From positions 31,400-95,399 of IMG/VR virus record IMGVR_UViG_3300021368_000003: a DNA stretch of 64,000 nucleotides, one strand, 5' to 3'. The position numbers were made by a program, and so were the translations under genes. The notes under the pieces were generated by a model. It was not told where the DNA came from. It worked only from the letters and a program-made list of their open reading frames with translations, and did not search any database. Of the stretch, positions 14,586 to 57,704 are shown in pieces (position 1 is the first letter of the stretch; each line of letters opens with the position of its first letter). Origin of the DNA: a virus.

Positions 14586-14665
14586 GTCAACGGCATTCGG
14601 GAATGTAACCGTACCGTTGATAGTATGAGCATCAGTTGAGGCATTACCAAGAGTGACATTACCGT

Positions 14666-33878: not shown

Positions 33879-33885
33879 TATTTAT
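33879..33885 (-). promoter_or_regulatory. Late-promoter-like ATAAATA box upstream of the YHYH gene
   Basis: The minus strand reads ATAAATA (in CAATAAATAAC), overlapping the stop of the giant gene and ending only 13 nt before the YHYH-gene ATG. The short leader makes it a weaker candidate than the others. Confidence 0.45.
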
Positions 33886-36800
33886 TGGAAGATCTGAGTA
33901 GGTGTAAATCCACTGATAATAGTGGCACCTGTCTGAACTGTGAGGATCACGGAGTTGGAGTAAGTAGGTTGAGCACCAGCAGCAGTGATTGCTACACGGA
34001 ACTCATCACCATCATCTGCCTGTACAGCAGCGTTAGAACTGTAAATCGCATTTGTCTGACCCGTGATGTTGACCCAGTTAGTTTCACCATACTGCTTGCG
34101 CTGCCACTGATAGTTCAGTGCAGTGGTTCCGACAGATCCGTCAGCACTCACGATGAACGAAGCGTCAACGGTGAAGGATGCAGTCTGACCTTGGTTCACG
34201 GTCACGTTAGTGGGTTGTGCGTTGATCAGGATGTAACCAGGTACGATCACGATTGGGTTGCCGTCAGCGTCAGTACCTTCACCCGCGTAGGTGTCGAAAC
34301 CACCGTTAACATTACCGCCCTCAGGTGCTACAAAGTCATCAGGGACAGTTGTCTCAACTTCAACCACAGGTGCTTCATAACCAATACCAGGGTTCTTAAC
34401 CACGATGGAAGAGATACCCATCAGAGCACGGATACGACCGTCGAAACCAGTGGAGGAAACCACGTCAACGTTCGGGCGTGAGGTGTAACCGTTACCAGGT
34501 GCAGTGATCTGTGCCTTAGTAATTTCACCAGATCTGATGGTAGCAAGAGCAGCAGCGTTGCGACCCTTAACAGTTCCTGTGTACTCGAAGGTAATCAAGG
34601 AGTTGGAAGACTCGATCAGAGCGACCTCACGAGGATCACCTTCACCTTCGATTTGCAGAATGTCACCAGCCTCAATCGGAGGTACGACAGTTGCCGCGAT
34701 CACGTCAGCGTCAGAACCAATGTAGGAGAAGGCAACAAATGTAGATCCTGCGCGAGGAATCTCAGCGAAGATAATTCTAGAACCAACCAGGTTATAACCA
34801 ACACCAGGTTCCTGAATCACACCATTGAGCGAGACGATGATGTTGTTCTCAGGCAAGATAGTGTTGGACGACACACCTTCCGTCAGAGTCAAGGAGTAGA
34901 AACCACCCTGATACTTCAAGTTGAAGGACGAGCGCAAGGAGTCAAACTCGAAACTGATGTCATCAAGTTGTCTCAGTTTACCCACGTAGTAACCAATGAA
35001 TTCAGATCCGATCGTGGGAGGTTCAGTGAACTGAATCTGGTCGGAGAACGCAGTGTAGGCGTAAGTTGCACCAGGAGGTTGCAGCACACCATTGACGAAC
35101 ACGAGCAGGTGTCCAGCGGGATCTGGGAAGTATGCTTCACCGTTGTTGACGGTGAGTTTGAAGGAAGTTGCAGTGCCATCAAATCCTCGGAAGAATCTAT
35201 CGCAACGACCCAGAAGCGACTTCGCTTGCGTTACACCTGCTTGCCAATCGTAGTCAGAGATGATCGACAAGTTGCTGGGCCAATCGCCCACAGCATCTTC
35301 CAACCAGATGCGACCAGTGGTGCCGCTGATTGCCTTACCTGCGACCTTACCGTAAGAGGTGTAAGAGGTCTCGGTGACGGAAGAGATGTCTGCACGGAAG
35401 ATTGGGAAGTTGCTAAGGTTCTCAAACTTACCGATAGAACCATTTGCTGCCAGTTGAGGATCGACAGTCGTGGTTCCATCTGCTGCCTGTCCATACGGAC
35501 GCAGGTTCGCGAGCCATACGTTGTGAATGCTGTTATCAGGATCGTAGTTATACTCAGTGACGATAGCAGTCCAACCAGGTTGTGCGGGGATGGTGCCTTG
35601 GAGCAGGTAAACCAGGTCGCCTTTGTTGAAGTCTCCCAGGAATCCTTGGTCTCTTGTGACATTTGTGATCTGACACTGGATTGTCTTAGTCGCATGTACG
35701 AACTGATTAAGTTCGATATTTCTAAATCCAGCAGTGGTGATGTCAGCGATGTCAAGAATAACGTCGGTGACAGAACCGTAGATAATATCGCCATCCACGA
35801 AGTTATCTTGCAGGGACTCAATGTCAATCGTGATACGACCGCCCGTGTTACCCACGAGAGCACCAGCAGAGTTCTCATAGAGTTTGATGTCTGCCTCAGC
35901 ACCATTGCCCTTGTTGAAGATCATCTCACCTTCTGCGAATGCACCGCGATCAATGTTGATCAACATGCGCTCAGTCAGATCACCTTGGACAGTTGCAGTG
36001 ACAGCAGAGTCTACACCCACGAGGTCATCGCCAGCGTTAATTATGCCAGTGATATTCTCGATGTAGCAATTACCTTCGTCAGTGTTATCACCCGAGAGGA
36101 CAGAGGTCTGAACAATGAAACCGTAGTTAGAAGGATTGCCATCAACGTTGACTCTCTCGCCATTTGTGAAGCGACCAGAGGCAGATACGAGATTCGCCTT
36201 CTTGTACAGTTTGATGATCTCTGCTTCATTATTTCTAGTTCTGATAACGTCACCACGGCAGTTGGAGCTAGTACCAACAACCACGTCAGCGAGGTTGAAA
36301 CCACCACTGATAGGCGTATCAATGTCACGAGTACCATATGTGGTGGTCTCACGATAGATACCAGAGCGTACGTCAATTTGGAATCTCTGCTGACCACCAG
36401 TTGAGAGGTCAACATCAAAGTCGCTGTAACGTGCGTCGTGACGAATCTCGCGTGCAATCTCGAAGAATTGAGGAGTTGCGTTCAACACATAGAACCAAGA
36501 CTGACCTTGGAGTCCACGCTCGATGTCAGCCGAAGCGGGTACATAGGTGAGAACATCACCACGAGAGTAGAAGTTCGGGCGAGTAATCTTGACTCTGTTC
36601 TCTCTTCTCTCGAAACCAACTTCCACAGTAGGAGTGTTAAGAACCAGTTCAGGATCAGTGTTCCAGTCATTACCCTCGTCGTAGAGGTTTTGCAGGTTCT
36701 GAGCATGAGTCGAGTTGACCCAGATCAGGTTGTTGTTGGTAGGAGGTGTGGAGCGCGTAAGAGCGAAATTGATCGGATTAGTAGAAGCGTCAATTCTAAA

Positions 36801-39800
36801 CTCAGTAGACTCTTGCTCATACTCGAAGCGATACTCAATAGCATCCATCAGAGTATCATCCAGATAACGGAAGTATTCGTTATTTGTACCCCACTCAGCA
36901 GTGTTGTTCTGATCGTAGAGAATACGCTTAGATGCCTCAGAGATGCGTAGCAGATAGAAGATCAAGTGTTGTCTTACAACACCATCATATGCGATGAAGT
37001 TACCTTCGCCATCGAACCAGGAGTTCGCCAGTTTCATGGAACCAGCGTTACCACCAGTGTTGAGGTCATAGATGATTGCATCCATCACCACCTGAGCGAA
37101 GGACTCAGGAGCAGCGGTGCCAGGATACTGTGTAGTCACTTCTGCGAAGGACTTAGCAACGATAGCGTGCTTGTTGAACACCAAGCGACGTGCAGTTGCA
37201 CGATCAGAGAAGGATCCACCACCAAGGGTTTCACTCATCAGATCGAACAGAGTATCAGCAGCAGAGATTACGTTGTAGCAGGTGTACAACTGATAGGTAG
37301 TATTGCTGTTGTAAGGCGTAGTTCTAGTAACAGTGCTGAGGTGAGTCGGCGTAGGTGATCCAGATGCTGCCTTAGCGACAGTATCGATCACGAGGTCAAA
37401 CAGAGTCTCGATAGCAGATGCAGTCTGCTCACAAGTGCTGTTCCAACCACCAGTTGCACCCTCGTCATAGGTAACAGACACGTCACGGTGAACCATGTCG
37501 TTGCTGTACTTGATTGGCCAGATGTTCGGCAGAGACTTGGTGATAGTTCCGTCAGTGATGCTTGCAGGAGTTGCAAGTGTATCATTGACGATATCCATCA
37601 GAGTTCTCATGGTGGATCTTACGTCAGCACATACACCGAAGGTTCCATCGGGAGCACCATCAGCAGTGATGCTGTACTGAGGATCGCTGTATGGGAAGTA
37701 ATCAAGATCACCGTAGAACTTCTGATTGTAAGAATGACCACCTTGCTTAGTGATTGTGTCATTCTGCATCACATCAACAGCAAGATCGAATGCCTTGTTG
37801 AGGATCCAAGTGGTCTCAGTTACCTGCGAGGAAACGTGAGCCACAGCAGCAGACTGAACATAGAGTTCAGCGGCGTGGAAGACTTTGTTGTTACCACCGT
37901 ATTTCAGGTTGAATACCAATGCACTCAGAATGTCAGTAACGTCATGAACACAATCGATGCTACCAGCAGTAGTAACAGCGTTGTCTTCTGCACGTACGAA
38001 CGTATGTGCGTATTGCTCACCAGCAGGAGAAGCACCAACGTTAACCGTGATCGTGGTAGCAGTTACGCCAGTGATTGCGATAGAATCCTCGTAATAAGGA
38101 TCAGTGGTGCGAGGATAGGCGTGCTCAGTAGCATTTCCATCCTTAGTGCAGGTGAACACCAAAGAATGAGGTTGGATGTAGATCTGGTTGCCAGCAACCA
38201 AGGAGTGAGATCCAATGGTCAGTTCCAACACACCCGAAGCAGGAGTATAGGTAGCAGCAGTAGGAGTGAAGTTCACACCACCAGTAGTACCACCGTTGAT
38301 GTTCAGTGAAGGATATTGCTGTTGACCCAGGTAAACTGCTTCCTCAGCAATGAATCGGATGTTTCTATCAATGATGTTAGCAGCATCGATATAGCGGTCG
38401 CGTACAGCATTCTGTTCGTAAGAGCTGGTTTCCACTTCGTCGAAGGATTCACCACCCAGGTCGCCACCACCAGCAGCGCCGTCACCTTCACCAATTTCGT
38501 TGTAAATGTAGATGTTGTCACGTCCGAATCCATTTCTCATGGTCAGGATGCACATTTCCTGTGCAAACTTCATAACCCATTGTGATGCCTCTTCTTCACC
38601 TTCGACGTGGAGGAGAGTATTGTCTTCTGCATTCAGATAGAGTGCAGCAGCATCCCAGGTCTTAGAGTTACCACCCAGACGCATGTCGTGAACGATTGAT
38701 TCGATAATATCAACCACATCATCAACACAGTTCTGACGACCGCCAGGAACCTTGAAGTTGATGAACTTGGACATGTCGTTCATGGTATGAACTGCTTCCC
38801 AAGCGATCACATACTTGTTACGCTCGATCATGTCGGCAGCATCCATGAGGCGATCATGGTTAGGACCAGTACGAGTCTGATCAGGTGCCTGAGGATCAAT
38901 AGTGATCGTGGTGTCACGATACACCTCACGGGTAGTCCAGATTGCAACGTAGTAATCGTCTTGATATCTACCATCAATACCCAAACCAGCAGCAGTAGTA
39001 CCCTGTGTCAACAGAGTATTGTTGATTGCGTGCTTAACGAGTTTTTTGGTGTACTCAAAGGCGTCCAGCATGGCGCTGAGTTCACCTTCAACATGAAGGA
39101 TCTGGTTATCTTGGTTGATATATTGATCCAGGACATATTGGGTAGAAGAGTTACCACCAGTCAGCAGGTCAGTGATGACAGCAGGCAAGATGAACTTCTT
39201 GATGTCTCTGAGACAATATGGTTCGCCATAACCAGGCATCTGCAAGAAGTCAAAAGTACGGATTTCTCCGAGAGGTCCTTGAATTTCAGCAGCATACTTG
39301 TCTTGGATGTATCCGACAACTTCCTCAGCAATGTAATCGCGGTTTTTCCAGATAGCATCACCACCATCACGGAATCTATCGCCAGTTGGGCAAAGGATGT
39401 CAATGATAGTATCGGCAAGAGAACTAATCTCGTTAGTTACCTGGGAAGATGCAGGAGAAGCGAAGTTGTTGGGGATACGAAGGATGTCAGTGTACTTGGC
39501 AGGAACAGTGTCACCATTCTCATCGACCATGGTTCCATAGTTGACCAGATCACCGCTAGTGGTAGTGATTACATAGTTCATAACATCTGCCAGTTCATTC
39601 CATGCGTAGATGGATTGCAGCAGTTCGTTACCAACGTAGTTCAGACCACCAGACTTGGTGAGATATCCTCTACCAGAGATCACGCTGTTGTAGTTACCAC
39701 CGTAACGGATGTCAGCGATGATTGCTTTCAGGATGTACTCTTTGGTATCGCGAATACACTTGTTAGTGCCCTGCTCACTGGTCTCAGTATCACCAGGGAT

Positions 39801-42800
39801 GATGAAGTCAGGATACTTCGCTGCCATCTTACCGACAGCAGTTTCTGAGATCCAATCGAGGTTGAGTTCAAGCATGTCGGCACACTTTCTGTGCTCGTCA
39901 CGCGAGAGGTCAATGTCCTCAATGATAATTTCTTTGGTGTCGTAGTTGACTTTCTTAGCAGTTGCAGCAGAGTTAGTCTGACCAGTATATACAGCAAATG
40001 ATTCCTCAGTGCTGCAAATGATGTCCTGCTCCATATCCATACCGAACAGAACGTTAGCAGTGTTCGTAGGATAAGTTGTACCAGGAGTAAAGGTTCCAGA
40101 ATACAGGGACTCGTTATGAATAATGAAGTTGTCAACATGACCTTGGAAGGTGTTGGTGCCATCCCAACCAGCCATCATTCTGAATGGACGCTCTACATAA
40201 GTGTTGGTGTCAGAGTAATCACCACCAGTTTGTGTACCGTTAACAAATATCTTGGTGATGCCAGTTGTTCTGGTAATTGCAACGTGAGACCATTGATCTT
40301 GTGCCATGTTGTGAGCACCAGAGATATGATCAGTTCCGTTGAGCCAATACTTAATGGAGTTGTTCTCCAAGTAAATCACAGGAGATTGAGTCAGAGTGGC
40401 ACTTTGAGTTCTACTATCGAAGAGATACTTGATACCAGACTGAGGGTTAGTAGAAGGACGCAACCACATTTCAATGGTGAAGTCACCAGTACCAAACTTA
40501 GTCACATTAGACAGTTCATGAGACAGTCCAGTATGAGTCTGGAAGTTCAGTGACTGAGTACCTGCTTTCTTCTGCAACTTAGTCAGAGTGATCGTACCAT
40601 TAGCAGTCAACTTAGAGTTGGTAATGATCTCTCTATCAGTGAAGGTGCCAGTAACAGCGTTAGTGAACAACCACTTCAAACCAGAGTTAGTTCCCTTCGC
40701 CTCAAAGGATGCACCAGAGGACGTGCCTCTAATGGTATCGCCAGGAATGAAGAATCCGTTACCACCACGATCTTTGTAAGCAAGCTTGAATACACGGAGG
40801 TTCTCGTTCTCGTTGTATGTACCATCAGTGATAGGACTGAGGGAGTTGATGCTGTTGAGGTTACCAGCGCCGATTGCAGTTGCTGCAATCTCAACCAGAG
40901 TATGAATACCTGCCTGTACATCAGCACAGTTCTGGATACTTTCGTTGCTACCAGAGGAGTAGTTAGGATCGTAGTATGCTGCCTCAGTACCACCACCAAC
41001 GAAGATGGCGTTATCAACTGCATCGATAAAGGTGTGAGTATAACCACCACCAGTCGATACAGCGTTTGCATTAGCAGATACGAAGGTGTGAGGATACTGC
41101 TGACCAGTTGGAGAAGCACCAACGTTAACAGTAATCGTAGTTGCCGTTACGGCGTTGATAGCAAGAGTTGCACCAGCAGCAGGGTCAGATGCACGAGGAT
41201 ATGTGTGGTTAGAACCATTGTTATCCTGAGTACAAGTGAAGGTCAGTGAATCAGTAGCAATTCTGATGTCATCACCAATTTCCAGCGTGTGGGAACCAAT
41301 GGTAAGTTCCATGGAACCAGTTGCAGGATTGTAGTTCGCACCAGTAGGAGTGAACTGAACCAAAGGAGATGCACCGACGTTAACGTCAATGGTGGTGCTA
41401 GTTACACCAGTGATTTGCAGAGGTGTGTTGAATGCAGGATCACCAGCACGAGGATACTCATGGAACGTAGCACCACCATCCATGGTGCAGGTGAAGTTCA
41501 TCGAGTAAGGTCTGATCGTTACAGAATCAGAAGTCGAGAGACTGTGAGTACCGATACCGATTGTCATCACACCCGTTGATGGGGTGTAAGTGGCAGCCGT
41601 AGGAGTGAACTGTTGCAGAGTTGTGCCAGCAGCACCCAGGTAAGGACCTTGATAAGTCGAAGGATCCTTCAACATGTATCCCAGTTCTGGGGTTCTGGTG
41701 TTGACCTGTACGTAGAGGAGGTTGTTGATAGCACGACGTGCCATCTCGCCTGCCTTTCTAAATGCAGTCAGGGACTCAGCAAGTTCTCCAACCAAACCAT
41801 TGCTGATAGGTGAACCGTTAGTGAAATACTTTCTAGCAAACTCAACAATGTTGTAGTTACCATCATCACTGATGTCATCAGACAGAGCATCGACCATCAG
41901 ACCGATGTCACGACGACACTTAACTTCGTTAGCAGTGTATTGAGTCGGAACTACCTCATCGAGGATGTCAGCAAGGGAACCAGCAAGCAGGATGACAGAG
42001 ATGTTATCGCAGAGAGTTTGCAGCGCAGATTGTACGTCAGCGCAGTTATTAACTCCATAGTTAATGTCATTAGAACCAGCAGTGCCGTAGTTATTACCAG
42101 GAGAAGGATCAGCAGTGATACCAGTTCCAGTAGAACCACCAGCGGTTCTCTCGTTGTAGAAGATGTAAGTAACACCATCGACAACCTCAGATCCATTCAG
42201 GTCATTTCTGAGTGCCTGACGCATCAGTTCAGTTGCCTTATCAAATGCAAACTCAGTAGCAGCTGCTTCGTTGTTTACATACAGGAATTGTGTACCATCA
42301 GTGCTGAAATACTTCTGTGCAAGTTTTCTGGTATATACTGTACCGCCACTATAAACGTCGAATGACAGAGCATCAATGTAGTAACCAATGTCGCGCTTGC
42401 ACTTGTCAGCAGAAGGAACATTCAGAGAAGGATACTCAGCAGTCATCAGAGCATAAGCCTTCGCCTGGATATAATGCTTATTCTTCTGAATCAGACGATA
42501 TGCATCAGCATATCTGGACCAGGCGTCGGTCGCGTTGTCGCCAGGATAATAGAACCCAGGATGCTCAACAGCAATCTCAGCATTAGCAAAGTCAACGATC
42601 TCATCCTTGTTCAGGGCGATCATACGACCAGCGTCTTTCCATCTGTTCTTAGAGTCGGTAACAGTGTTGCCATACTCGAAGGTGATAGAGCGCAGTTCAT
42701 CACCAGCAGCGAGAGTACCACCAGTTAGGTTCTCGTACTCAATCTCAGTAGATCTAACTTCTTCAAAGTCAAGGAAGTCAGCGTTAATTCTCTGATCAGC

Positions 42801-45800
42801 ATCATCAATCAGAGTAGGAGTAATTGTAGTCTTGGAGATATCATCTACAATGACGTTAGCATTAGTAAGAGAGATGAGACGCTCAAATACCAGACCGAAG
42901 AAGGTTGAACCTTTGTTGATGATCAACTGATCAACAACATCACCCAGTCTAACTTCACCAGCAACAACCTCAGTCATGTTGTCGAGGATTCTATCACCAG
43001 TGGTAGAATCAACGGTATATTTTTGGATAGTATCACCATCTTGGAAATCTGCCACAGATCCCTTCAAGTAATACAGGATCGGAGGAGATGCCTCTTGATC
43101 AATTCTTACAACTTCACCACTTGCAGTTCCACCAGGTCCTTGGATCTTGTCACCCTCAGAGAAGGAACTCCAACCCGATTCACCGCCAACAGGACGTACC
43201 AAGTTGATGTTAACAATAGGATCTCTATAAGGAGAAGTGCTTGTAATTCTTGCAGCAATGTTGGAACTTGCAGAATAGATGATATCTTGTAGACCGATAG
43301 CATAGATACCAGTCTCATATTCAGAAGTACCAGAAGTCTTAGAAAGAACCAGTTTGTCATCGATGTTTCCATCCAAATCTTGGTTGGTTTCTTCAATGAT
43401 CGCTTGATCACCATCAAGATTAGTAACAGTCTCACCAAACTCAAAGATGGTCTTATAGTTGACACTATCAACATTCAGAATGTCACCACCATATTGGAGA
43501 CCGAAGAATGTGACTGATTCACCTCTTTCAAAGTAACCATTTGCCATGTCAGTGACATCAATGGTGTAATCAGTTGGGTTGACAGTAAACACAGTTGCAG
43601 TTGCACCACTGGTCTGACCAGTAACTCTTACACCACCAAGTGCGTTCTGAGTAAATGTGCCACCAACGTTTTCAAGGTATAGCTTTGTTACAGAATCGTC
43701 GATACTTCCGATCAGTGCGCTGAATCCAGTTCTACCAACGTCAATACGCTCGTTAAGATCAAAAGGTCCACCTTGGATATCTACAACGTCAATGCTAGTA
43801 GCACCAGTTGCAACAACCTTTGCTCTTGCCTCAGATGTGAAACCATTAACAGTATCACCCAGTTCAGGGAAGATACCACCGATAGTATTCAAGTTGAGTC
43901 GAGTGATCGGCATGATGTCGAACTCAACGTTTCTGTAAACAACCTTAGAGTCGGGCTTAGGAGGTTCAGCAAAGACGATGTTGTTACCAACGATTTGGAA
44001 GGATTCGCCAGGTGCTTGGATCACACCATTCAAGGTGACAACCAACTGGTTATCCTTAACGATGAGGTTCTCACCTTCAACTCGAAGTGGGAATTGCTTA
44101 GTAGAACCGTCGAACTGACCAGAGATATCGTCAATCTTCTTAACGATAGAAGTCAGAATTTCCTCAGAGTTAGTCAGTCTCTTCTTACGGAAGAGAACTT
44201 CGGAGTTATTGAAGGTTGAGTAGATCGGTTGAGCAGCACCGAAGGAAGTAATCTGGTTAACGTTGGTGTACTCGTTGATGTTCACCTGCTTAGTGAAACC
44301 AGCAACAACCTTACGTCCAGAGATATCCTTACCACCAGTCAGTTCGAGCTGACCGAACATGTTGAAACCAACAGGGTGGTTGTTTTCAAGAATCTGAGAC
44401 TTCCACTTATTGATAGGAATCTGAGACTTAATAACGTAGGAGAAGTTCTGATAGAAGAAGGAGTCTTGAATCTTCTGAACAATCTCGGAAGGTTTACCGA
44501 TGTCATCGATGAATCTACCAGGAGTCTTGGTCAGAGCATCAATGTTCAGCACACCCTTAGCAATGTTGATGTTATCGATCAGACCAGATGCGCGAGAGAT
44601 AACACCCTGCACCTTACCACCAACAACAAAATCACCACGGGGGTTAGTAACTTTAAGAATCTTAGGTTGAATCTGCCAACCTTCGTTTTCTGATACAACA
44701 CCGAAAGCACTAGCAAGTTCGTAAGACTCACCTTGGAAGAGTTCTTCACCTTCCAGGAAGCGAGAGGTCTCAACCACTGCTTCTGCTTGACCACCAAACA
44801 CCTCGGTGAGTAGCACCTGACGACCATCACCCTGAGTCAAGAAGGTAATAAAGTTACCAGACTCAGCGTCAACTCTGGTCAGTGCAAAGCGAAGTTGGTC
44901 TGCTTCCAGACCATTTACATTACCAGCAATAGCATAGTAAGTCTGAGTAGCAGACAAACTGGTCAAACCAACGCTGCTGGGCTTGGGCAGTATACCAACT
45001 TCACTACCGATATCATCAGCACGGAACTGAACCTCAGCACCAGTGGTAATACCATGAGGGAAGTTGAACTGCAAATAGTTCAAGTCAAGGTTCACAACAT
45101 AGGTGAACTCAGATTTCAGAGTGACAACTGGTTGTGAAGAGTAACCAGCACCAGGATTCTTGATCAGAATCTCAGACAGTCTGTTGTTCTTAACAACTGC
45201 TTCTGCCTCAGCACCAGATCCACCACCACCAGAAATGATGACAGAAGGAGCAGAGGTATATCCAGCACCAGGATTAGTGATCTTGATCTGGGAGAGAATA
45301 GAGGTGTTAAAGAGTTGCAGGTTGATCGGGAATGCAATCTCAGGACGCAGGGTGTAGTCATGGGAGTAACCATAACCAAACTCGTTGTTTTTCAGCGTCT
45401 TGATCTTACCAATCTGTCTACCAGTGAGGAACACAGCAGCACCGCTACCCTCAGCAGGGATAACCACTTCTAGTTCTGCACCAGAACCAGACAATGTGGG
45501 TCCAAGAATACCTTCAATACCATCAACGTCGATACTTGCAGTGGTGTAACCCTTACCAGGATCAGTCAGAGCAACATCAGTAATGGTGCCAGATCCGATC
45601 TCGTCATCAACCTCAACGGTGATTTGCACAAGACCACCTTCACCATCACCCAGGATAGGAACCTGAGTATAGACACCAGATGCATATTCAGTACCACCGT
45701 TGCTGATTCTGACTTTTTCGATCTTACGATCAGATGCAATGTCAGATACAACAGGGAGTTTCTTATAGAATCCACCAGGAGAGATCAGTTTAATCGTGTT

Positions 45801-48800
45801 GATAGGACCGATTGCTTTGACCGAAGTGGTGGAGTAGGAAGAGTTGGGACGATCAAACTCATCTTCACCAATTTCTGCATTGGTAAATTCAGGTTCATGA
45901 AGGAGTTTGAATCTAAACTCAGTATCAGAAATAACTTCGCTGATAGTAAACCTACCATCAAACGGAGTCTTGATCACATCAATAAAGGAGTTGTTACCAA
46001 CAGGAGAGTTGGCACCCAGTCTTGATGGGTCAAAGTAATAAGTGATATTAGTAACCTCACCACCAATGGTGAACTTGACCACAGGTGTCTCAGTTGCAGA
46101 GGACAAACCAGGAGTACCTTCACGTTCAATAACGTTGAAGGAGTATTCCAACTTATACTGGTTGTCCTGAGAGAATGACAGATAATAACCGAAGTTAGAA
46201 GGATCACTCATATCAAAGATATAAGAGTGATTTCTAGTCAGCATCAGAGTTGGGTGCTTAGATGCAATCTTGACACCAGTTACACCAGTTGCAAATCCAG
46301 GATCAGCAGTTGCAGTAGCACGCAGTCTGTAAGTAAAGTCTCTGGAAGAGAATACTTCTTGGACAAAGAACGAACCATTAAACTCACCAGTGTCGAATCC
46401 TTGTACAAACAGGATGTCACCAGCAGTATAGTTATGAGGAGTTACAGCAGTTGCATAGATTAGGTCAGATCTACCTTCACTGGTTCTTATAATGTCCTTA
46501 TCAAGAGTAACAGTCAGTTTGATAGTCTTGACAGTAGTAACACCATTGATATCTGCAATCTTGGCATTATCTTCATTAGGACCAGCAGTAATGCTGCCAC
46601 CCAGAGATACTACGTCTCCGATGATGAAGTCAGAGTCAGAATAGGTATCGATAATAGTTACTCTATACTCTTCTGCTCTGAAAGGTCTGAACCTTGCATA
46701 GTCAGAGAGTGGATCATATGTACTAACGTAGGACCAGGTGACGTTTCCATCAGTGACAGTTCCAGAAGTATGTACAGGAGCAGTGCCACCACTGATACCA
46801 TCAGAAGTTGCTTGATACTTATATCTGCCATAGTATACAAAGTCATTGGTGGAATAGGATCTATTGGTTTCCCACTCATCTACCAAAGGTTGAGGCCAAG
46901 CATAATCCAAGAGATTTACTTGGATGGTTCCAGCAGCACTAATGTAGTTCCAAGTTACAGCACCATCAGTTACAATACCGATCTCATGAGTTGGTGCAGT
47001 AGCACCAGAAGTAGCAGTATTAGTAGCAGCGTAGATCTTACCGTCGCTGTATACCTGATCATTGACGTTATATGCCTTACCTGACACCCATTCGTCCTGA
47101 GGACGAGAAACAGTAAAGTCAATCTCTTCAATCAGGTTTTCTTGACCAGTAGAGTTTCTGAATCTATCAGTATTGTTAAAGTTACCAAAGATCTTACCAA
47201 TCTTATACTCAGTACCATAACCTGGGTTGTTGATAGGACCAACAGGAGTCTCTACAATCGTACCAAACGCTTGGGTGACACCCTGAGCGTTAAATTGCTG
47301 AATAACAGTACCCTTATCAAACTTAACGTCTTGGTTGAAGGTAAACTTCTTAACGTTATCCATCTTAGAGTATGCTGCATCTCTAAGGTAGTATTTTGCA
47401 ATTACATTAGGAGAAATAAGCAGTCTCTTTCCGAGAGGTGAGGGTACAGTAGAAGTCTTAGAAGTGTAAGTCGTAATAGACTCACCGAAAGTGTATGTAC
47501 CGTAATTGAGAGTAGAGGTTACATCAGAGTAATCAAGAATTTGCAGACCAGAAGAACCTTCGTTCCAAACTGTGATAACAGGATTGTTCAGGGTATTAAC
47601 ATTGAGGTTAGTTGCCTCACTGAATACAATACCTTGATTATTAGCAATCTGATAATCACCACGCTTGCTATGGAGACGATCAAACTTGATCATATCCATA
47701 CCAGAGTTCTCAGTATCAATTCTGTAACGCTCAGTGGGAACAGTCAGAGAGGAACCAGTATATACAGCACGCGGTTCTACGATGATGTCATCAACCCAAC
47801 CAATAAAGGAGGTGTTGGTGGCACCAGAAGTAGCATTAGAAAGAACTGCAAGGTCATCCATTGCAACATCTTCTGTTCTGGTGGCAGTACAAACTTGTAC
47901 ACCATCGAAGTATGCAGAATATACAAAGGAACCAAGAGTAGGTTCTTCCTTGACCAGAACAATGTGATGCCATCCCTCAGATGACATTGTGGTGAAGTAG
48001 GTAGAACCCACAGATACCACGGTAGCACCACCACCACCCTGAGGAGTGATATCGAGGATGACTTTACCGAAGTTAGGGTCACCAACAGTACCATTGATAG
48101 AGTAGATAACCTTATCGCCATTATCGGCAATACAGGTGATCATTTCCATCTTAGGATTATTGCTAGCATGGCTGCCAATCATCTTGACCCACATGCCGAC
48201 AGTCCAGTCGTCATTGTTATCAAAGTCAGTCCAATCCAAACGACCTGCTGCTTGCAGTTTTAGTGAAGCAGAACCAAACTTATAGATGGTATCATCTCTG
48301 AGGATGTTAGCACCACCAGTTACAGTGACAGCACTCTTCTTCTGCTTGGTAGCATCGAAGTAAGTATCAGCACTATCGTTGAAACGATATACAGCAGTAG
48401 GAACAGATCTTTGAACGTTGACTGGAACAATAATGTCACCAGAGTTATCAACAGTGTGATTGAAAGCAGTAAATCCGAGACCGTAATCAGTGTCACTATT
48501 AACAGAATCCCAAGCACCACGAATGATGTTGGACTTGTAAAGTAGAGTTCCATTGTACTTAAAGTTGGAAGCAACTACTTGTTGATCATTATCTTCGTAC
48601 TTGATATGGGTAAGAACATTGACATTACCGAATTCATCAAGACTGATACCAGCATGATTGATAGATTCAAATGTAACACTAGGAGCAATAATCTTAGAGA
48701 AGTACCACTCAGGAGCACTGAGAGTAAGTCTGATTTGATCCATCGCAATCTTGAAGAATGCAACACCATAGTGCTTGGTGCCATTCCACATATCACATAC

Positions 48801-51800
48801 AAAGAACAAATCGTTGTAGGAATCCAGAACAAACTGAGGTCTTTGTACCTGACCACCAGAGACTGCCAACTTCTTGACATAACTCATTTCGATGTTGGCA
48901 CCGTCATAAACCATCTCACCAAACATGAGATCGTTATTGTCTAAATCAATACCAGCAAAGACGATTTTATTGTTACCAATGTAATACAACTGGTGCATTT
49001 GCTCACCTTCGCTGTCAGAAGCGAACTTACGCTTCTCTACAACGTCACCTTGGTTATTGAGCTGCATAACCCAGATATCATCAGGATCTGGGGAGTTGGT
49101 GTCCGTCCAACCACAAATATAAAGTCTCTGCTCGTCATCGAGGTAAATATCACCTGCATAGTCGCGACGAGTCGCACCAGAGACACCAGCAATCTCTTTC
49201 TGGAATCTGATGATACCTTCGGGATTATTTGCGTTATCAAGACCAGATTCGTACTTAACAAGCAGGATATCGGGATTATATCCAGCAGTGCTCTGAGATT
49301 CGGTTTCACCGAGCACATAGATCAAATGATTGTCCTCAGAAGTCTCGTCGAGGTAAATCTTCTTAAAACGTGCTTTTTTGATGCTAGAAGACGGCAGAAT
49401 ACTTCTATCCCAAATAAGTCCACCCAGATCGGAGAATTTAGCGAGGAAAGCAGAAGTATCGCCATTTGTTTGAGTCAGTTCGCCACAAACGTAAGTAGTA
49501 CGGTCGGAAGCGGTCTGAATGTCGAAAATTTCAAATGTAGAGGCATTAGCACCACTTTCGACATATTGGTTGACCCAATAGTAAGTTTTCTTAAATTGTT
49601 GAGGGTGAGAGACTCTGATTTGAGGAACATCCTCAATATCGTAGTCAAAACCAGAATTGATGATATCAACACGGTCAATCTTACCAGTGGTGGTATCCAG
49701 GATAATATCAAGTTCAACGTCCTGTCCAGAGTCAGTAATGATCTCATAAGTGGGAGGAATTGCCTCATTGTAACCAACACCGATCTGATCAACACTAATT
49801 GACTCAATACCAGTCACAACGGACATGTAGAATCGCTTATTAGTGTTATCAGTGATAACTTTCGACGAAACAATAATTTCGTCTTGTGCAATCAGTTCGT
49901 GATCGTTAGCAGTGGTAATTTTACCGTATGGTTCATCATCAATGATCTCTTTACGATATCCAGAGATACTTTGACCAGTAACAGACTCAATTTGAGCAGA
50001 AGCACCAAATCCATCAGTTCCAGTGTTATCAAAGAACAAAGTATCGTTAACCTGGTAAGAAACACCAGGGTTCTCGATAACGAATCCGTCAATTTGTGCA
50101 GACTCGAATTTAGTAGTATTTTCGACCTCAATATCCACTCTGGACTCGGTAGAGACCGTTGGGAAGTAATCATAGATCTGCAATGCCGCTTCTTCGGTCA
50201 TTGCTTGCAGAGTTGCAATTTCAACGGGACTGATGATGCCATCACCGTCCATATCTTCAATTTCAAAGATAATTACGTCACCTTCACGCTCAGTAACGAG
50301 TTCATCAGATCTTTGGTTAGGTTGACGATCAATATCGATGTCAACATTAGCATAGGGGTCTCTGAAACGAGAAACATCAAGAGGAATGTTTTCTTGGGTT
50401 GCAGATTGACTCAGGTTCCAAGTATCAACAACAGAGTTGAACTGAGGACCAACAATATAAGGGAATACAGGAAGACCAGCGTCAGATTCGTCAATAGTTA
50501 CAAAATAAGCGTAAGTACCAGCAGGATAGTCAGGAGTCTTACAGAAACGACCGTTATAGGGGTCTAGGTCGCCTCTCTGGAAGTCATATTCGTAATCATT
50601 GATGAAAGTACCAGCAGGATAGGTTGCAAGCAGCGGACCATCCGTTCTGGCAGGAGTTGGGTTGGTATCAATGTTATATACAACCTCATCCTTCAATTTG
50701 TAAGAAGAACGCATTCTTCTAAGACCACTGTTCTGATCAGTCGGGTCAATATAACCGTAAGGACCGTAAATCGGGTTACCATCAAACGCCCAACCAATAA
50801 TTGGAGAGTGTGCTTCGTTCTGACCAATCTCACGGAAGTTCTGAGTCTGAGGGTCAAGAACTACGTTGTCACCAACCACATAACGGAGTTCTTTCGGGTC
50901 AGAGACGTGTGCATATTCACCACCATACTGGTTATTGAAACCAGTGAATACATAACCACGAGCAATGTCATATTTGGAGTTAAGTTCATATTCAAGGTTT
51001 TTATTCCACTTGAATACAGTTGCTTCAAAGGTTGCAAGTTGACCAACTGCCTCTAAACGTACAGTTGTTTGACCTTGTGTATATCCAACACCTTTGTTAG
51101 TGATTTGGACAGAAATAACCTTACCTTTGTCCTCACCAAGGGTTCCAATGACAGCAGTTGCCTGAGCACCGAATCCATCACCGTTAATGTATACGGTAGG
51201 AGCAGTGGTATAGTTTTCACCAGAGTTAATGATAGCGATCGACACAATACGACCGTTAATCACAATAGGTTGTGCCAGAGCACCTTCACCAGAGTTCAGT
51301 TTGATCTCGGGAGTAGAAGTATATCCAGATCCAGCAGAAGTCAGTGAAACGCCAGAAATAGGACCACGAACTTGTGCAGTAGCAAGAGCACCAGCACCGC
51401 CACCACCAGTAATAGAGATAGTGGGTTGAGAAGTATAACCAGTACCAGCATTCTCTACCAGAATACGAGTTACACGACCATTAGTCACAACTGCCTGAGC
51501 AGTTGCACCAGAACCACCGCCACCAACGATAGAGATCAGAGGTTGAGCAGTATACCCAGAACCCTGATTGGTAACATCGATAGAGAACAGTGAACCATTA
51601 ACAGTAACGCTAGCAGCAGCACCAGTACCACCGCCACCAGAAATTTGAAGTGCAGGCTTGTTACCAGCATCATAATCGATACCATTGTTGGTAATAGTGA
51701 TTGCAGTCAAAGGACCAAAGGTCACATAGTCCTTAGACTTGTAAGACCAAGCAGCAACACCGTTTACCCAAGAACCAACGGGGTTATTAGGTTGAATAGT

Positions 51801-54800
51801 AGTTCTAGTAGAAACCGTAGATACAGTTCTAGGGAATCTAAGCAGTTTACGCTGGTTACCAGGAATTAGAGCAGAACCTTGGAAAGGACCGATCTTATAG
51901 TTGGGCAGACCAGATGCAGCAACGTAAACGTAGTTATTATTGAAGAAAGTATTCTGAATGTTTGAAGTGAACAGAGATACTACTTCGTTAATAGAGTTAA
52001 TAGTAGACTTACCTCTATTCAAGTCAACAGACAAGAGAATGTTACCCTGAGGAGTGATCTGAGTTGGTACAGGGATAGCATAAGTGAAAGTAAAGTCGTC
52101 AAGACGAGAAGTTACTTCATAAGTTCCGTTATAGACAGCAGGGTTTGCACCATAAATGGTAACCTTGTCTTCTACAAGCAATCCGTGCGGGTTATCACAA
52201 ACGACGGTAGCAGTTTGGTTATTCGATCCCCCAGGAGTAATGCTTGTAACCTTGATGAGTTTCTTAACGTTATACAACCAGGATTGAAGGCGTTCATCAG
52301 TGTCAGTGCCACCCAAAGCAGCCACATTAAGCTTATCGCCTGGTAGATAGTAAGAACCAGTGTCTTCAAGAACGGTAGTACCTGCTTCTGCAATACCGAG
52401 AACACGAAGTTTGACTTCATTGCTCTGTCCTTTGTTAACCCAGACAAAAATATCCGATTGAATCGTCGTACCAGGGTCCCAGTCCTCAACTACACCGTTT
52501 TTAGAACGAGTACACTCGATAAACTGGTTCAGTGACTTTTCTTTGTACTGAACAACCTCTGAATCATCAATAATGATCGTACCGTTCTTCTCTGGCCACC
52601 CAATAGTTGAGTCAACGGTAATTATGTTACCATCAGTGGACAAAGGTTCAACAAGAGTCGTTTTATAAGGAATCTTGAAGGTTCCACTCAGAGTTTCCTC
52701 TGAAATTGCCAATTCGTAAATTACGTCAGTACCCTCAATGATCGAAATCACGTTTTCGATCAAAACAGAGGCATCTTTGATATTTTGGTCAACAGGATCC
52801 TCAATTTGGATCAACTGTGCGTTCGGTAGATCAGCAGGGTCACCAGAAATCAGTTGAGCACGAAGAATCGTGTCAACAACCCAGGATGCTGCCGAAGGAG
52901 TGACCAGTTCGTCTCTTGGATAGTAAACATCAACTTCCTCACCGAACAAAATCTTGAATAGGTACTGTGCAGCAGTTTTCGTACCCTTCGAGATGTAGAA
53001 ATCCTTGATCGTCTTGATAACTTGCACAGGATTGACCCGTGCATAGTCAATGTTGATCGTAGGCATGTATTGATCACGGAATTTATCAAATACACGTCTA
53101 ATAATCTGAGCGTCCAGGTTATGAACAACAGATCCAACAGTATGATTGGTTTGTGCAAGTTGATCTTCCTTAGCGTAGACCTGATTGCCAAAATTATCAA
53201 ATTGGACAACATCAGATACACCACGAGCACAACCACGCAGTGAAGAAGGTTCATAATTTTCACCAGAAGACCTAATAAGGCAACCAGTTACCTCACCAAA
53301 TCCAACATCACATGATGCTTGTGCAGCAAGTGGTTCAGCGATGTAAACCTTAGGAGGATTCTCAGTAGAATACCCTTCACCGAAGTTGGTGATGTTAATA
53401 TCAGTAATTTCACCGTTAAAGATGGTTGCTGCTGCCATTGCACCAGTACCACCAATAGATTCACCCAGAGGACCCTTACGATCGTCTACAATGTATACAG
53501 AAGGAGCATCGGTATAACCAGAACCACCTGTCAGCAGGTTGATATTGGTAACACTACCGTTTGCAACAGTAACATCAAGAACCTGAGCACCAACGGGTTG
53601 TACAACTCTTGCTCTTGGTGCTGTCTGGTAACCACGACCTCTATTAGTGATAGTTACAGACACAACTTGTCCGTCAGGAGACACAGAGCAAGTTGCTTCG
53701 GCGTCAATACCGTCTTCGGGAGCAGGATCAATGTAGATAGTAGGAGGATTACTATAACCAAGACCAAACTTAGTTACAGTGATAGATCCATCAACCAGAC
53801 GACCCTCAGAATCGATTGTAGGGTCAGTACACTCAGCACCACCAGGGTTGATAAAGGTAATTGCAGGAATAAAGTCGTAACCAGAACCAGAGTTGGTGAT
53901 CTCGATACCAGAGACTTGTCCTGTTGTATCATCAACAGTAATTTCAGCAGCAGCACGAGAACCATTGATCAGATCGCTAGGTTCAGTGATACGAACAACA
54001 GGAGGGTTGTATGAAGTGTAACCCTGACCACCATTGATCAGTTTAACGTTCTTAATACCGTTGACCAGAGACCTTGCAGCAGCACCAGTTCCCTTTCCAG
54101 TAGAAGAGAAGATGGATACCTTGGGTGCAAAGTTCAGTCTATAACCACTACCACCATTCTTGATAGTAATTGCGGCAATTTCACCATTAGAACCAACACG
54201 GGTCACTGCCTCAGCGCCAGTTCCAACCGAAGGAGACACATATTCGATCGAACGGATATGGAATGTGTCTTGTCCAGAGATGTTAACAAAGAACTTGATT
54301 CTAGTGTTGTTATCAGTCAACACATAATCATCGAATGGGCGTTGCAGCACACCATTACGGTTGATAATCAGACCAATCTCAGCAATCGGAGCATAGGGGA
54401 GATTATCATATTGAACCACCATCGAATCTCCACCAATGAGACTCTCGACAGGAGGGTAAACCAGTTCTTTAATTACAGAATCAGCAAAACCGATGTAGTA
54501 AAGAATCTGAGTCAGTTCTACTTGATCATTACCAGTTCTAGCACGGGGTGCAGTGGTAAATACAATCTGAGAACCAGTAATAGTGTAATCAACACCAGGG
54601 ATCAACAGATCACCATATACAGTAACTGCAAGGTGTGCTGCTGAGACAGGTGAGACAGGGGTGCCTAGGAATTTGAGATCGAAGGTAGTTCTAGTACCAT
54701 CAAACTCAGTCCAAGGAGATTCTAGTGCTTGTCTCTTCTTATTAAATTCTTGTAGAGAGATACCTGGGGTCAGGATTACGTCAGGACCACGAACAGTCTG

Positions 54801-55126: not shown

Positions 55127-57289
55127 TTAGAAACAGGAGTCGATGTCGGGATACTCGAAAGCATCAATCGGGTAGTTAATCGTATTTATGTTGCCCCCAC
55201 CATAGTTCCAACCAGCAAAGTTGAAGGGGTCAAAGTTAGGAATGTCACTGGGGTTAGTGACAAAATCAATCGGGTAAACTTCGGGGTTGAAGATGGTTGG
55301 GTCAACACCTGGCGGGATGGTAAGACCGTTACCATCGGGGAGAACCACAACGGGAACTCTCGTGTTGCCATCAGGGGTATCAGCAATATTTAGGGGTCCG
55401 ACACAGACCTTTCCTGTATCATAATCTACCGTTCCGACAGACTGATTCAAGACAACTTCTTTTTCATTTCTATTAGTTACCATGATCAATCCGCCATTAC
55501 CATCGTCTCTGATGTTAACGGGGACAAGTGTTGAAGTCGTGATTTCTTCTGAACTGAAAATTGCATCTTCCAGAGCAGATGAAAAACCTGCCTGCTCGCC
55601 AGCAGTTTGTACCAACGAACCTGCCGCTTCACCAGCAGCAATCTGGTCTGCTACATCTTCGGTATAACCAGTTGCATAGAACGAACCAGTTTTAACGGAA
55701 GAAAACTTAGGATTACAGTTGCCACCGTCGCCATTGCCACCGTCGCCGCCAGTTCCATCACCATCTCCATTGCCACCAGGTCCACCGTAGTCGCCTGGGT
55801 CAACAATAGGATTATTAAAGTCAAGACACTGAGTAAAGATATTACCAAACGTGAATTGGTCAAGGTTTTGACCAATAGTCATCTGACTGGTAGTACCAGC
55901 AATAGCATTATCAGAAGAGTCAATCACAGCATTGAATTTAGACATTTCAAGACGACCACCGAAGCGATTATCTCTATTCTGTGAGTTAAACTTGTCAATA
56001 GATTTAAGAATCTCAGATGCCAACTCGTTTGCAGATCTGGATGTCTTGTTTCCGTCGTAGGAAGGGTAAACCTTTGGAGACAGATAGTAAATTCTTGGGT
56101 CAACAACGATCGGTTGGATCGATGCCATGGAGTAGTCAAGCAGTTGGTTCTGAATACGCTTCTTAGTCGTAGTGTTGAGGTTCACACCAGACTTAGAACG
56201 AACTGCGATGAATACCTTGCCATATTCAGGAGGTGATAGTTTCTCACCACCATAAGCAGTAACTGCTGCTGCCTGAGGGAAGATATCCTTTACAATGTGA
56301 GCATAGTCGTTTTCTGTAACTGCTCTGTTTTGGGTCGAGAACGCCCTTGGAGCACGAAACTTGACTGATAGGGCAGATTCCCTGTCTTCGCCTGCCTGAG
56401 ACCCGTCTATGGTCGCCAGAGACATCGATGAGGGCAGAATAGGACGACCAGTGTTGTCAATAGCACGTCCAATGAAATTAAACTTGGTTGCGCCGTTAGC
56501 AGTAGGTCCGTCAGTGGCAATATAGGTCAGTACAATAAATTCATTATCAATCAACTTACGTCCAAGAACACCATCACCGAAAACAACCTTATATCTAATG
56601 TCTTCGGTCTCTTCTAAGAAATAAACACGAGAAGTAGAGTCAAGTGCAGTAACGTTTCTAGAAAGAGAGTATTCGTCAATCTCAGCAGACTGTTCATTTG
56701 GTTTTACTGCTACAACTAGCAGTTCAGTATCAACACCGTCAGCAGGAATCACATATTCTTGCTTCTTAGTATCATCAACGGTGTAATTAAAGGTGAGTAG
56801 GTTGCCCTGATAGATCACCAGTTTCTCAAAACTTGCAATACCAGTATTCTGGTCCACCGCTACCTGGGTGTCCTTCATAATGGCATAGGTATATGCTTCA
56901 CCGTCCACCTGAGAGATGAATACATCACCTGCTTTGATAGTAACTGAGTCAGGGTAGGCAGAACCACCAGGAAGCAGTTGAGTCTGTGCAGAGACGCGCA
57001 CACACGCCTTAGACGCCTTAATAGAACGAGGCGTATAGTTGATCTGTTTGGCAATGCGAACAATGTTGTCTCTAACAGTCGCACTTTCCAGGAATGCTTC
57101 ATTCATTGACATGTTTGCCAAGAACGCAGCGTAGTGCGTATTGTAAGCAAGGATGTCGATCAGGTAAGAGGCAGTCGATCCCTCAAAATCATAATCCGTA
57201 AATTCAGGACGAGTCCTGAGATAGGATTTGATCGATTCCTTAATCTCAAAAAAGTCAAGAGACGTTAGTTCTGAGGGTGTTGCTGGCAT
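55127..57289 (-). CDS. gp6: Baseplate wedge protein gp6
   Basis: T4-like gp6, the main scaffold of the baseplate wedge. The N-terminal region (FDFEGSTASYLIDILAYNTH-type: here YDFEGSTASYLIDILAYN, THYAAFLANMSMNEAFLESA) and FRAPRAFSTQNRAVTENDYA around residues 310-330 are hallmark segments. At 720 residues it is a little longer than T4 gp6 (660). A Gly/Asp/Asn-rich linker (GGNGDGDGTGGDGGNGDGG) around residues 498-520 separates the conserved body from a ~200-residue C-terminal domain. Start ATG follows the gp25 stop by 1 bp. Confidence 0.95.
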   Translation of the reverse strand: MPATPSELTSLDFFEIKESIKSYLRTRPEFTDYDFEGSTASYLIDILAYNTHYAAFLANMSMNEAFLESATVRDNIVRIAKQINYTPRSIKASKACVRVSAQTQLLPGGSAYPDSVTIKAGDVFISQVDGEAYTYAIMKDTQVAVDQNTGIASFEKLVIYQGNLLTFNYTVDDTKKQEYVIPADGVDTELLVVAVKPNEQSAEIDEYSLSRNVTALDSTSRVYFLEETEDIRYKVVFGDGVLGRKLIDNEFIVLTYIATDGPTANGATKFNFIGRAIDNTGRPILPSSMSLATIDGSQAGEDRESALSVKFRAPRAFSTQNRAVTENDYAHIVKDIFPQAAAVTAYGGEKLSPPEYGKVFIAVRSKSGVNLNTTTKKRIQNQLLDYSMASIQPIVVDPRIYYLSPKVYPSYDGNKTSRSANELASEILKSIDKFNSQNRDNRFGGRLEMSKFNAVIDSSDNAIAGTTSQMTIGQNLDQFTFGNIFTQCLDFNNPIVDPGDYGGPGGNGDGDGTGGDGGNGDGGNCNPKFSSVKTGSFYATGYTEDVADQIAAGEAAGSLVQTAGEQAGFSSALEDAIFSSEEITTSTLVPVNIRDDGNGGLIMVTNRNEKEVVLNQSVGTVDYDTGKVCVGPLNIADTPDGNTRVPVVVLPDGNGLTIPPGVDPTIFNPEVYPIDFVTNPSDIPNFDPFNFAGWNYGGGNINTINYPIDAFEYPDIDSCF
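55183..55189 (-). promoter_or_regulatory. Possible late promoter ATAAATA inside the gp6 3' end
   Basis: The minus strand reads ATAAATA within the last 25 codons of gp6, ending 61 nt before the giant gene's ATG. Because it lies in coding sequence and the spacing is long, it is only a weak candidate for a start dedicated to the 21-kb gene. Confidence 0.3.
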
Positions 57290-57290
57290 C

Positions 57291-57704
57291 TTACGTTCTC
57301 TCTAAGAGGAATTCAACAGTTTGAGTTTGCGGTTGACCAACGATTGCATATTCAATCGCTACGTCAATACTGTAATCATCGTCAGAGAGATTCACGTCAA
57401 TGTTTTCGACCTCAACACGAGGTTCTAAACGTTGTATAGTATTACTTATTTCATCTCGCAGATCTTCTGCTGAGAAAACGTCAAAGGGTTCAAATAACAA
57501 CCCTTTGACTCTTGAACCAATATCAGGTTGATAGGGGCGTTCACCAAAAGCGGTCAGTATCAGGTTTCTGATCGATTGCTTGATAGCATTTTCATTTTTC
57601 ACCGTCGAGAAATCTTCGGTATTAGGGTTTGCTTCAAATGAAACCGCTAAGTCCTTAAAACCTCGGGAGAAAAACTTTTCTGATCGAAACCTGTACGACG
57701 GCAT
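57291..57704 (-). CDS. gp25: Baseplate wedge protein gp25
   Basis: The conserved T4 gp25/T6SS TssE-family wedge protein that contacts the sheath initiation site. Family landmarks are visible: NAIKQSIRNLILTAFGERPY around residues 38-57, PDIGSRVKGLLFEPFD at 59-75 and the C-terminal YSIDVAIEYAIVGQ. Length 137 is standard (T4 132). The upstream gap of 8 bp and the preceding 3' coding end hold two CTAAATA boxes. It begins the wedge operon gp25-gp6-giant. Confidence 0.95.
   Translation of the reverse strand: MPSYRFRSEKFFSRGFKDLAVSFEANPNTEDFSTVKNENAIKQSIRNLILTAFGERPYQPDIGSRVKGLLFEPFDVFSAEDLRDEISNTIQRLEPRVEVENIDVNLSDDDYSIDVAIEYAIVGQPQTQTVEFLLERT

Follow-up and report, generated by a model that had tools for sequence, protein, structure and literature searches.

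What is a protein of 7079 residues doing in the tail gene region of a cyanophage? The window that we analyzed, 64,000 nucleotides of a 95,399-base IMG/VR virus record, devotes about one third of its length to a single ORF, which opens with ATG and runs for 7079 codons to its stop with zero internal stops; chance origin of such an open frame is excluded. The original prediction for this locus described a mosaic of at least eight domain types that could recognize the host surface in place of, or beside, conventional fibres. We examine below the family, modules and neighbours of the gene, and present evidence from sequence profiles and a structural model that its seven helical repeats are truncated phycobiliprotein-like domains, some of which may carry a bilin. 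Published work is cited by PMC number.

The giant gene, its modules and its counterpart in virions

The predicted protein aligns with the phrog_701 profile (6136 positions), the first 3500 aa as one stretch and the second half as ten, the halves scoring 4675.5 and 2535.3 bits. Together with the intact frame, this alignment bears out the predicted single-frame product. The family is annotated as 'virion structural protein', with no mention of domains or function. The nearest named relative over the region from gp6 to the giant gene is Synechococcus phage S-WAM1 (Kyanoviridae; 71% query coverage, 76% identity), which has a 6737-aa homologue at the equivalent place, after gp25 and gp6. Since ORFs of 6076-7312 aa that contain these repeats are found in P-SSM4, P-SSM7, P-RSM4, Syn9, Syn19, Syn33, S-SM1, S-SSM5, S-ShM2 and S-WAM1, the existence and size of such proteins were already known. 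The phycobiliprotein likeness of the repeats is absent from the phrog_701 and S-WAM1 annotations that we examined.

The gene order agrees with that of T4 (gp25-gp6-gp7): gp25-like and gp6-like genes lie upstream of the giant gene, and a second YHYH protein, a wedge-to-fibre connector and a gp8-like gene lie downstream (Table 1). Judged by sequence and synteny, the gene thus appears to encode the baseplate protein that a T4-like marine cyanophage has at the gene-7 position, and it belongs to a known family of giant virion proteins. Other genes of the window deserve a word. The YHYH-related protein that follows the giant gene (32255-33865, minus strand; 536 aa; phrog_25852) has its YHYH region in common with phrog_701. 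A PAAR-motif protein (58053-58586, minus strand; phrog_281) is encoded directly upstream of gp25, and PAAR genes are similarly placed in P-HM1 and P-HM2. Two dehydrogenase genes (1855-2868 and 3237-4670, minus strand), assigned to phrog_1319 (6-phosphogluconate dehydrogenase-related) and phrog_4941, resemble the gnd and zwf genes that Synechococcus cyanophages are known to carry.

Table 1. Features of the giant gene and of neighbouring baseplate genes, in window coordinates
Feature	Residues	Window position	Strand	Basis
gp8-like baseplate wedge gene		27290..28825	-	phrog_438; called gp8 in S-WAM1
Wedge-to-fibre connector gene		30745-32229		phrog_677; close downstream of giant gene
Giant gene-7-position virion protein		33882..55121	-	7079 aa, phrog_701
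gp6-like baseplate wedge gene		55127..57289	-	phrog_219, 4.2e-197
gp25-like baseplate wedge gene		57291..57704	-	phrog_261
Gly-rich repeat block a	300-600	53322..54224	-	self-comparison
Baseplate-wedge-like stretch	698-740	52902..53030	-	PF23786, marginal at 26.6 bits (cut-off 27)
Gly-rich repeat block b with GGGGxGA	1133-1369	51015..51725	-	self-comparison and pattern
YHYH domain	1397-1544	50490..50933	-	PF14240, E 6.9e-29
Single EF-hand-like loop DMDGDGIISPVE	1623-1634	50220..50255	-	pattern match only
One SBBP propeller-type repeat	1983-2008	49098..49175	-	PF06739, 20.3 bits, cut-off 20.5, marginal
LamG-like domain 1	2298-2452	47766..48230	-	PF13385, 26.4 bits, E 8.9e-6, cut-off 27.6
CBM5/12-like module 1	2677-2707	47001..47093	-	PF02839, 28.3 bits, above cut-off 26.2, two stretches
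CBM5/12-like module 2	2750-2799, limits by eye	46725..46874	-	second PF02839 stretch
Gly-rich repeat block c	3097-3337	45111..45833	-	self-comparison
Phycobiliprotein-like repeat R1, CKRD	4204-4309	42195..42512	-	
Phycobiliprotein-like repeat R2, CRRD	4363-4471	41709..42035	-	
Paired homologous segments, unknown fold, between R2 and LamG 2	4495-4677	41091..41639	-	self-comparison
LamG domain 2	4870-5006	40104..40514	-	PF13385, 2e-17
Phycobiliprotein-like repeat R3 with last helix, CIRD	5072-5244	39390..39908	-	PF00502 above cut-off; model and fold match
Phycobiliprotein-like repeat R4, CLRD	5251-5372	39006..39371	-	
Phycobiliprotein-like repeat R5, CVDD	5426-5531	38529..38846	-	
Repeat R6, first part	5577-5613	38283..38393	-	
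Segment inserted in R6, homologous to residues 4577-4707	5614-5701	38019..38282	-	self-comparison
Repeat R6, second part, CVHD	5702-5791	37749..38018	-	
Repeat R7, degenerate, without C-x-x-D	5974-6073	36903..37202	-	
Gly-rich repeat block d	6822-6985	34167..34658	-	self-comparison
Ig-like C-terminus, by eye	6975-7079	33885..34199	-	Pfam gives no Ig family

Most of the modules first proposed for this protein are recovered by profile or self-comparison. The YHYH domain is clear; domains of this type are predicted to be tail-associated metal-dependent hydrolases (PMC7824862). Gly-rich repeats are present as four GGGG[STA]GA copies and many diverged ones. Both LamG domains are found, the first just below its cut-off, as are two CBM5/12-like modules, and the repeat HMM alignment confirms all seven helical repeats, with R6 interrupted by an inserted segment. 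Other assignments fared less well. The EF-hand loop stands as one pattern match (DMDGDGIISPVE at residue 1623) but has no Pfam support, and the beta-propeller comes down to one marginal SBBP stretch. A wedge-like N-terminus draws on the marginal PF23786 match, the PHROG wedge families and synteny, although residues 1-300 have no Pfam match; the C-terminus, read as Ig-like, gave three weak Pfam matches at E<=1, none of them to an Ig family.

The proposed role at the host surface is partly supported. The position in the baseplate gene cluster, from gp25 and gp6 to gp8, and the glycan-binding-type modules (LamG and CBM5/12) fit an adhesin, yet an adhesin reading does not predict phycobiliprotein-like domains. 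That the protein should replace the fibres finds no support, because a wedge-to-fibre connector gene lies close by.

Is the protein made at full length? In CsCl-purified virions of S-SZBM1, a 'baseplate wedge initiator' (S-SZBM1_208, 724 kDa, 6619 aa) was represented by 71 peptides at 13.5% coverage (PMC9146016, Table 1). An S-SZBM1 gene of that name matches R1-R2 of the window with 66.7% identity (tblastn), and the proteins neighbouring S-SZBM1_208 by locus-tag number, of 691, 532, 498, 615, 511 and 2446 aa, are paralleled by window genes in matching order encoding 720, 536, 494, 628, 511 and 2479 aa. Because gene order, lengths and the R1-R2 match agree, we infer that the two are orthologs. 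The peptides cover about 890 residues, at positions that Table 1 of that paper does not give. A product confined to the first 1000 residues or so is hard to reconcile with this coverage; the proteome leans toward a large product. In the available parts of the same paper, no bilin modification of virion proteins is reported.

Phycobiliprotein likeness of the helical repeats

We collected repeats with an iterated HMM, run on ORFs of at least 300 aa in 78 loci (L001-L078, comprising L001, S-WAM1 and 76 IMG/VR loci), and obtained 579 copies, of which 396 are unique. The most conserved columns, as shares of lettered rows, are N12 (98%), Cys40 (95%), I16 and G59 (92% each) and D43 (89%). An aligned Cys occurs in 303 of the 396 unique repeats and the Asp of C-x-x-D in every one of these 303; in the remaining 93, the Cys column holds a gap (79) or another letter (14). 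The residue before the Asp is Arg in 188 of the Cys-bearing repeats, Asp in 63, His in 50, and Ser and Lys in one each. In the window, six of the seven repeats have the C-x-x-D motif, with the C-x-R-D form in R1-R4 only, Arg being replaced by Asp in R5 and by His in R6. Cys makes up 36 of the 7079 residues of the protein. In many phycobiliproteins and in some free bilin-binding globins, C-x-R-D is where the bilin is attached (PMC10151467).

Further elements surround the repeats. The segment that forms a pair at residues 4495-4677 recurs once within R6 (residues 5614-5701), as if a cassette had moved inside the protein, and Cys-bearing NCADV-like helices at residues 4360, 4732, 5831, 5897 and 5948 resemble lone first helices of additional repeats. 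We also considered a second bilin site, as the NC(A/S)DV sequence after R1 resembled the last beta-subunit helix with Cys-153. This candidate was rejected: the HMM aligns this segment to the first helices of R2. A motif of this type follows 90 of 411 unique repeats, and in searches with extended repeats, the region after R1 was not reached in the alignments listed.

For profile and structure searches, 52 representative repeats were retained, each with 95 model columns filled, at most 125 aa long, on the plus strand and none from S-WAM1. One alignment joined R3 of the window to 51 of the 52 representatives, omitting L052:2554-2874, which begins in an inserted segment; a second combined the window with 24 of the 76 loci, chosen for clean match lengths, and another the window with 18 hand-picked R1-type repeats.

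Searched against all PDB sequences, the 52-repeat profile gave 123 matches at E<=10. The best 60 of the 123 are phycobiliproteins, with one row for a related bacterial fluorescent protein, and at the top stand two phycocyanin alpha chains (8.6e-6 and 9.2e-6), followed by a phycoerythrin alpha chain (1.2e-5). The phage Cys and Asp coincide with those of C-x-R-D in the four PDB alignments listed. The Pfam Phycobilisome family (PF00502) matches the C-terminal half of the giant protein at 40 bits (4.8e-10). Alone, it scores 23.9 bits on R3 and 26.9 bits on R3-R5, both over the cut-off of 22.2, and 16.9 bits on R1, below it; R2, R4, R5, R6 and R7 gave no match singly. The converse Pfam scan at E<=0.1 found PF00502 in 11 of the 52 repeats; another eleven families each appeared in a single repeat. 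Repeat regions of other tail proteins also gave matches to PF00502, with E values of 2.1e-19 for S-RSM4 (70.4 bits, same cut-off), 5.6e-11 for S-PM2 and 4.8e-6 for Syn1, and no match was found in the repeat region of P-HM2 gp7. The evidence from single repeats depends on the motif, since masking CIRD abolishes the Pfam match of R3. Other sequence searches gave weak matches, mostly to the same proteins: phmmer with R3-R5 gave a best E of 0.057 (13 of 14 matches to phycobiliproteins), phmmer with an extended R1 0.0073 (28 of 28 to phycocyanins), the extended R1 profile only 0.04 (14 of 17 to phycobiliproteins) and the S-RSM4 repeats 0.28 (four of four).

An AlphaFold2 model of R3, computed from a 52-row alignment, has five helices with a mean pLDDT of 86.7 and a pTM of 0.80, and thus predicts with good confidence a globular domain well past residue 1000. 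Foldseek returned no match for this model at E<=0.001 (best 0.043, probability 1.00); its best 50 rows are phycobiliproteins or relatives. VIA-align, run on the 442 chains ranked highest by Foldseek, gave Z 13.0 and rmsd 2.1 over 107 of 115 residues, again with phycobiliproteins or relatives in the best 50 rows and with 12-21% identity in the alignments listed; helical bundles can attain about Z 13 without kinship. The model of R3-R5 (466 residues) is weak overall (pLDDT 62.4, pTM 0.47). The extended R3 taken from it, with one extra helix, reached Z 17.7 and rmsd 2.2 over 141 residues, and its best 50 rows are phycobiliproteins or relatives, mostly beta subunits. Three points lead us to accept the fold match: the higher score of the extended domain, best rows that are free of unrelated folds, and the agreement among profile, fold and motif register.

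Structural matches start at residues 30-36 of the phycobiliprotein chains, and only 6 residues separate R3 from R4. The modelled phage domain thus consists of the B-E-F-G-H core, and helices X, Y and A of the N-terminus are missing from it. The X, Y and A helices have a role in alpha/beta pairing of phycobilisome phycobiliproteins. Hence, as these helices are absent and bilin is a presumed ligand, we do not class the repeats as phycobilisome subunits; by profile and model they are truncated phycobiliprotein-like, or bilin-binding globin, domains, which probably descend from a bilin-binding globin.

Distribution of the repeats and of bilin genes among phages

By tblastn at E<=1, R1-R2 match 395 of 50,697 phage records, named Synechococcus (321), Cyanophage (59), Prochlorococcus (14) and Marine (1), and R3-R5 at E<=1e-5 match 321 records in the same four name classes. 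Neither set contains a non-cyanophage carrier by name class; full names were listed for the best 40 of the 395 and the best 60 of the 321, and one record is known by its first word, 'Marine', only. For phages beyond the set searched with the profile, the coverage is that of tblastn, a method that may overlook distant copies. The profile search of 24 hand-chosen records found repeats in 15 T4-like cyanophages, none in the T4-like cyanophages P-SSM2, S-SM2, S-SSM7, S-CREM2 and S-CRM01, and none in the pelagiphage HTVC008M, the podovirus P-SSP7, T4 or KVP40. Repeats are present in ACG-2014f, DSL-LC03 and S-SCSM2R too. Two kinds of gene carry them: the gene-7 giant, and a 'short tail fiber protein' gene (T4-GC 734) in S-PM2, S-RSM4 and Syn1. 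In S-PM2 (NC_006820), the annotation places 16 tRNA genes (10557-15384 of our locus L132) within the short tail fibre gene that bears the repeats, which is 11.3 kb long, perhaps through shifted coordinates.

The repeats co-occur with CpeT (PF06206), a member of the T-type bilin-lyase family. Among these 24 records, a set of our own, non-random choice, CpeT was detected in 13 of the 15 with repeats and in none of the 9 without. When only T4-like cyanophages are counted, PF06206 alone detects CpeT in 14 of 18 genomes with repeats versus 0 of 5 without (agreement 19/23), and any evidence raises this to 17 of 18 versus 0 of 5 (22/23). CpeT of S-SCSM2R was found by PF06206, that of ACG-2014f was recognized solely from its annotation and a tblastn match (E 9e-5), and those of S-ShM2 and P-SSM7 were taken from Table 3 of PMC3037559. 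The sole exception among the 23 genomes is DSL-LC03 (L261), a Synechococcus phage from a lake: it has four repeats, and CpeT could not be detected in it. For Syn1, GenBank has a cpeT (T4-GC 338, L134 3939-4478), yet Table 3 of PMC3037559 shows none. Fisher's test gives p 1.8e-4 for 17/18 versus 0/5 and p 0.0014 when the first 20 genomes are scored with PF06206 as the sole evidence; however, the two traits change only three times on the gp43 tree and an independent-pairs test cannot reach 0.05, so that relatedness could account for the link. A gp43 search of IMG/VR for further full genomes returned mostly short contigs, which were left unused.

Three, one and two annotated protein genes, respectively, separate cpeT of S-PM2, S-RSM4 and Syn1 from the tail gene with repeats, which is downstream of it and on the same strand. 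Likewise, 20 of 21 IMG/VR loci found with S-PM2 CpeT have a same-strand repeat-bearing ORF, the first repeat beginning 536-2083 bases downstream, and the remaining one has only 189 bases of sequence downstream; these loci form one related group with near-duplicates, S-PM2 itself included, and represent few independent events. Phages of the gene-7 group, which includes the window, do not have cpeT adjacent to the repeats (for example, P-HM2 and Syn9). Neither CpeT nor a bilin reductase was found in the 95-kb record of the window, which may be a fragment.

Other bilin genes do not track the repeats: bilin reductase (FDBR) occurs in 7 of the 24 records (five with repeats, two without) and heme oxygenase in 4 (two and two), and CpeS was seen only in S-CREM2, which is without repeats. 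The CpeT of P-HM1 reportedly binds phycoerythrobilin without passing it to the host beta subunit. Simple loading of the repeats by CpeT is disfavoured, because T-type lyases are described as serving the beta Cys-153-like site, not C-x-R-D (PMC10452541).

Possible roles and known counterparts

What might such domains do in a baseplate? We prefer, at a probability of roughly 0.4, a reading in which the giant protein combines lectin modules, a YHYH domain and phycobiliprotein-like domains, many of them binding host or phage bilin so that the virion leaves the cell pigmented. That probability, for the full chain of steps, takes into account that five of the seven repeats give no Pfam match alone. 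Bilin binding by the repeats falls a little short of an even chance. The giant protein would become part of the baseplate, where the LamG and CBM modules would contact the cell surface, and the globin domains would take up a linear tetrapyrrole during assembly in a host that contains bilin, from the host pool or through phage bilin genes, possibly assisted by a phage CpeT-type lyase where one is present. The virion would then depart bearing bilin, and, by a weaker inference, the pigmented domains might act on contact with the next host. A role for them in light-dependent adsorption is speculative.

Almost as probable as the pigmented virion is that the repeats descend from bilin-binding globins or phycobiliproteins and have lost pigment binding, serving now as rigid helical spacers between lectin modules, with Cys and Asp kept for helix capping or packing. 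Their alternation with LamG and other modules suits spacers, as do R7, which retains the fold pattern without the motif, the 14 unique repeats with another letter at the Cys column, the change of Arg to Asp or His in two repeat classes, and the five other T4-like cyanophages that do without repeats. Yet it is hard to see in this light why the Asp is retained in all 303 Cys-bearing repeats of a protein otherwise poor in Cys, why a bilin-lyase family gene is syntenic with repeats, and why the carriers, at the search sensitivity used, are restricted to cyanophages. Convergence, in which a widespread helical arrangement happens to carry a C-x-R-D-like motif, seems quite unlikely to us. The low identity in the structural alignments, the Z scores open to unrelated helical bundles and the loss of the R3 match under masking would allow it, but the sequence profile, the fold and the register of the motif are consistent with one another, the best 60 of 123 PDB profile matches and the best 50 rows of each fold search contain no unrelated fold, and the S-RSM4 repeats far exceed the Pfam cut-off.

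The domains might otherwise act inside the infected cell, as a bilin sink or as mimics binding phycobilisome parts, their presence in the virion being incidental. Phages do alter phycoerythrin and carry bilin genes (PMC2984593), but late tail genes encode the domains, and the purified virion of S-SZBM1 contains a counterpart, which leaves this idea with very little credit. A further reading makes the bilin-loaded repeats a light sensor, in which absorption alters the baseplate or fibre and renders adsorption light-dependent. P-SSM2, which lacks repeats, is reported to adsorb in the dark. P-HM2, with repeats and CpeT, does not adsorb in the dark and P-SSP7, with neither, infects in the dark (PMC7112961), and light-dependent adsorption is reported for several cyanomyoviruses and for AS-1 (PMC2984593). 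However, this comparison draws on two phages of different groups, with P-SSM2 as a third, and a review attributes light-dependent adsorption to host photosynthesis (PMC9229316); we regard the sensor as improbable, although less so than convergence. Only slightly better placed is a broad form of the pigmented virion, in which the particles of T4-like marine cyanophages are biliproteins, with bilin-globin arrays in baseplates and short tail fibres, loaded by CpeT, whose pigment makes adsorption light-dependent.

Should this broad form prove right, the orphan bilin genes of phages (cpeT, joined in some of them by ho1, pebS and pcyA) would gain their missing acceptor. The role of phage-borne bilin genes has been called a mystery, most plainly for Prochlorococcus phages, whose hosts have no intact phycobilisomes (PMC3037559), and light-dependent adsorption of some cyanomyoviruses has no agreed molecular cause in the portions of the literature examined. 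Phycobiliprotein-like arrays with a phage lyase gene join these two questions. Even without pigment, the recruitment of bilin-globin domains into phage tails would put this fold to a new use; we found no report of a phycobiliprotein fold in a phage virion in the open-access literature, which is not proof of absence.

Several known systems invite comparison. With the T4 gp7 baseplate wedge protein (1032 aa), the giant protein shares its gene position after gp6, and its homologues in P-HM1 and P-HM2 are named gp7. It is, however, about seven times longer, and a phmmer search of PDB with residues 1-1300 matched no baseplate protein; gp7 is described as absent from cyanomyophages in PMC7029224. 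The T4-GC 734 proteins of S-PM2, S-RSM4 and Syn1 have the same repeats but are encoded by a different gene, downstream of cpeT instead of after gp6. Phycobiliproteins (PF00502: phycocyanin, phycoerythrin and allophycocyanin) have the B-E-F-G-H helix order and the C-x-R-D register in common with the phage repeats, which differ in lacking X, Y and A helices, in standing as tandem copies in a tail protein, in their variable Arg and in a bilin that is presumed. The bilin biosynthesis-associated globins (BBAGs) are relatives that bind bilin outside phycobilisomes, some with C-x-R-D; unlike the phage repeats, these are cellular, single-domain proteins encoded in bilin-gene clusters (PMC10151467).
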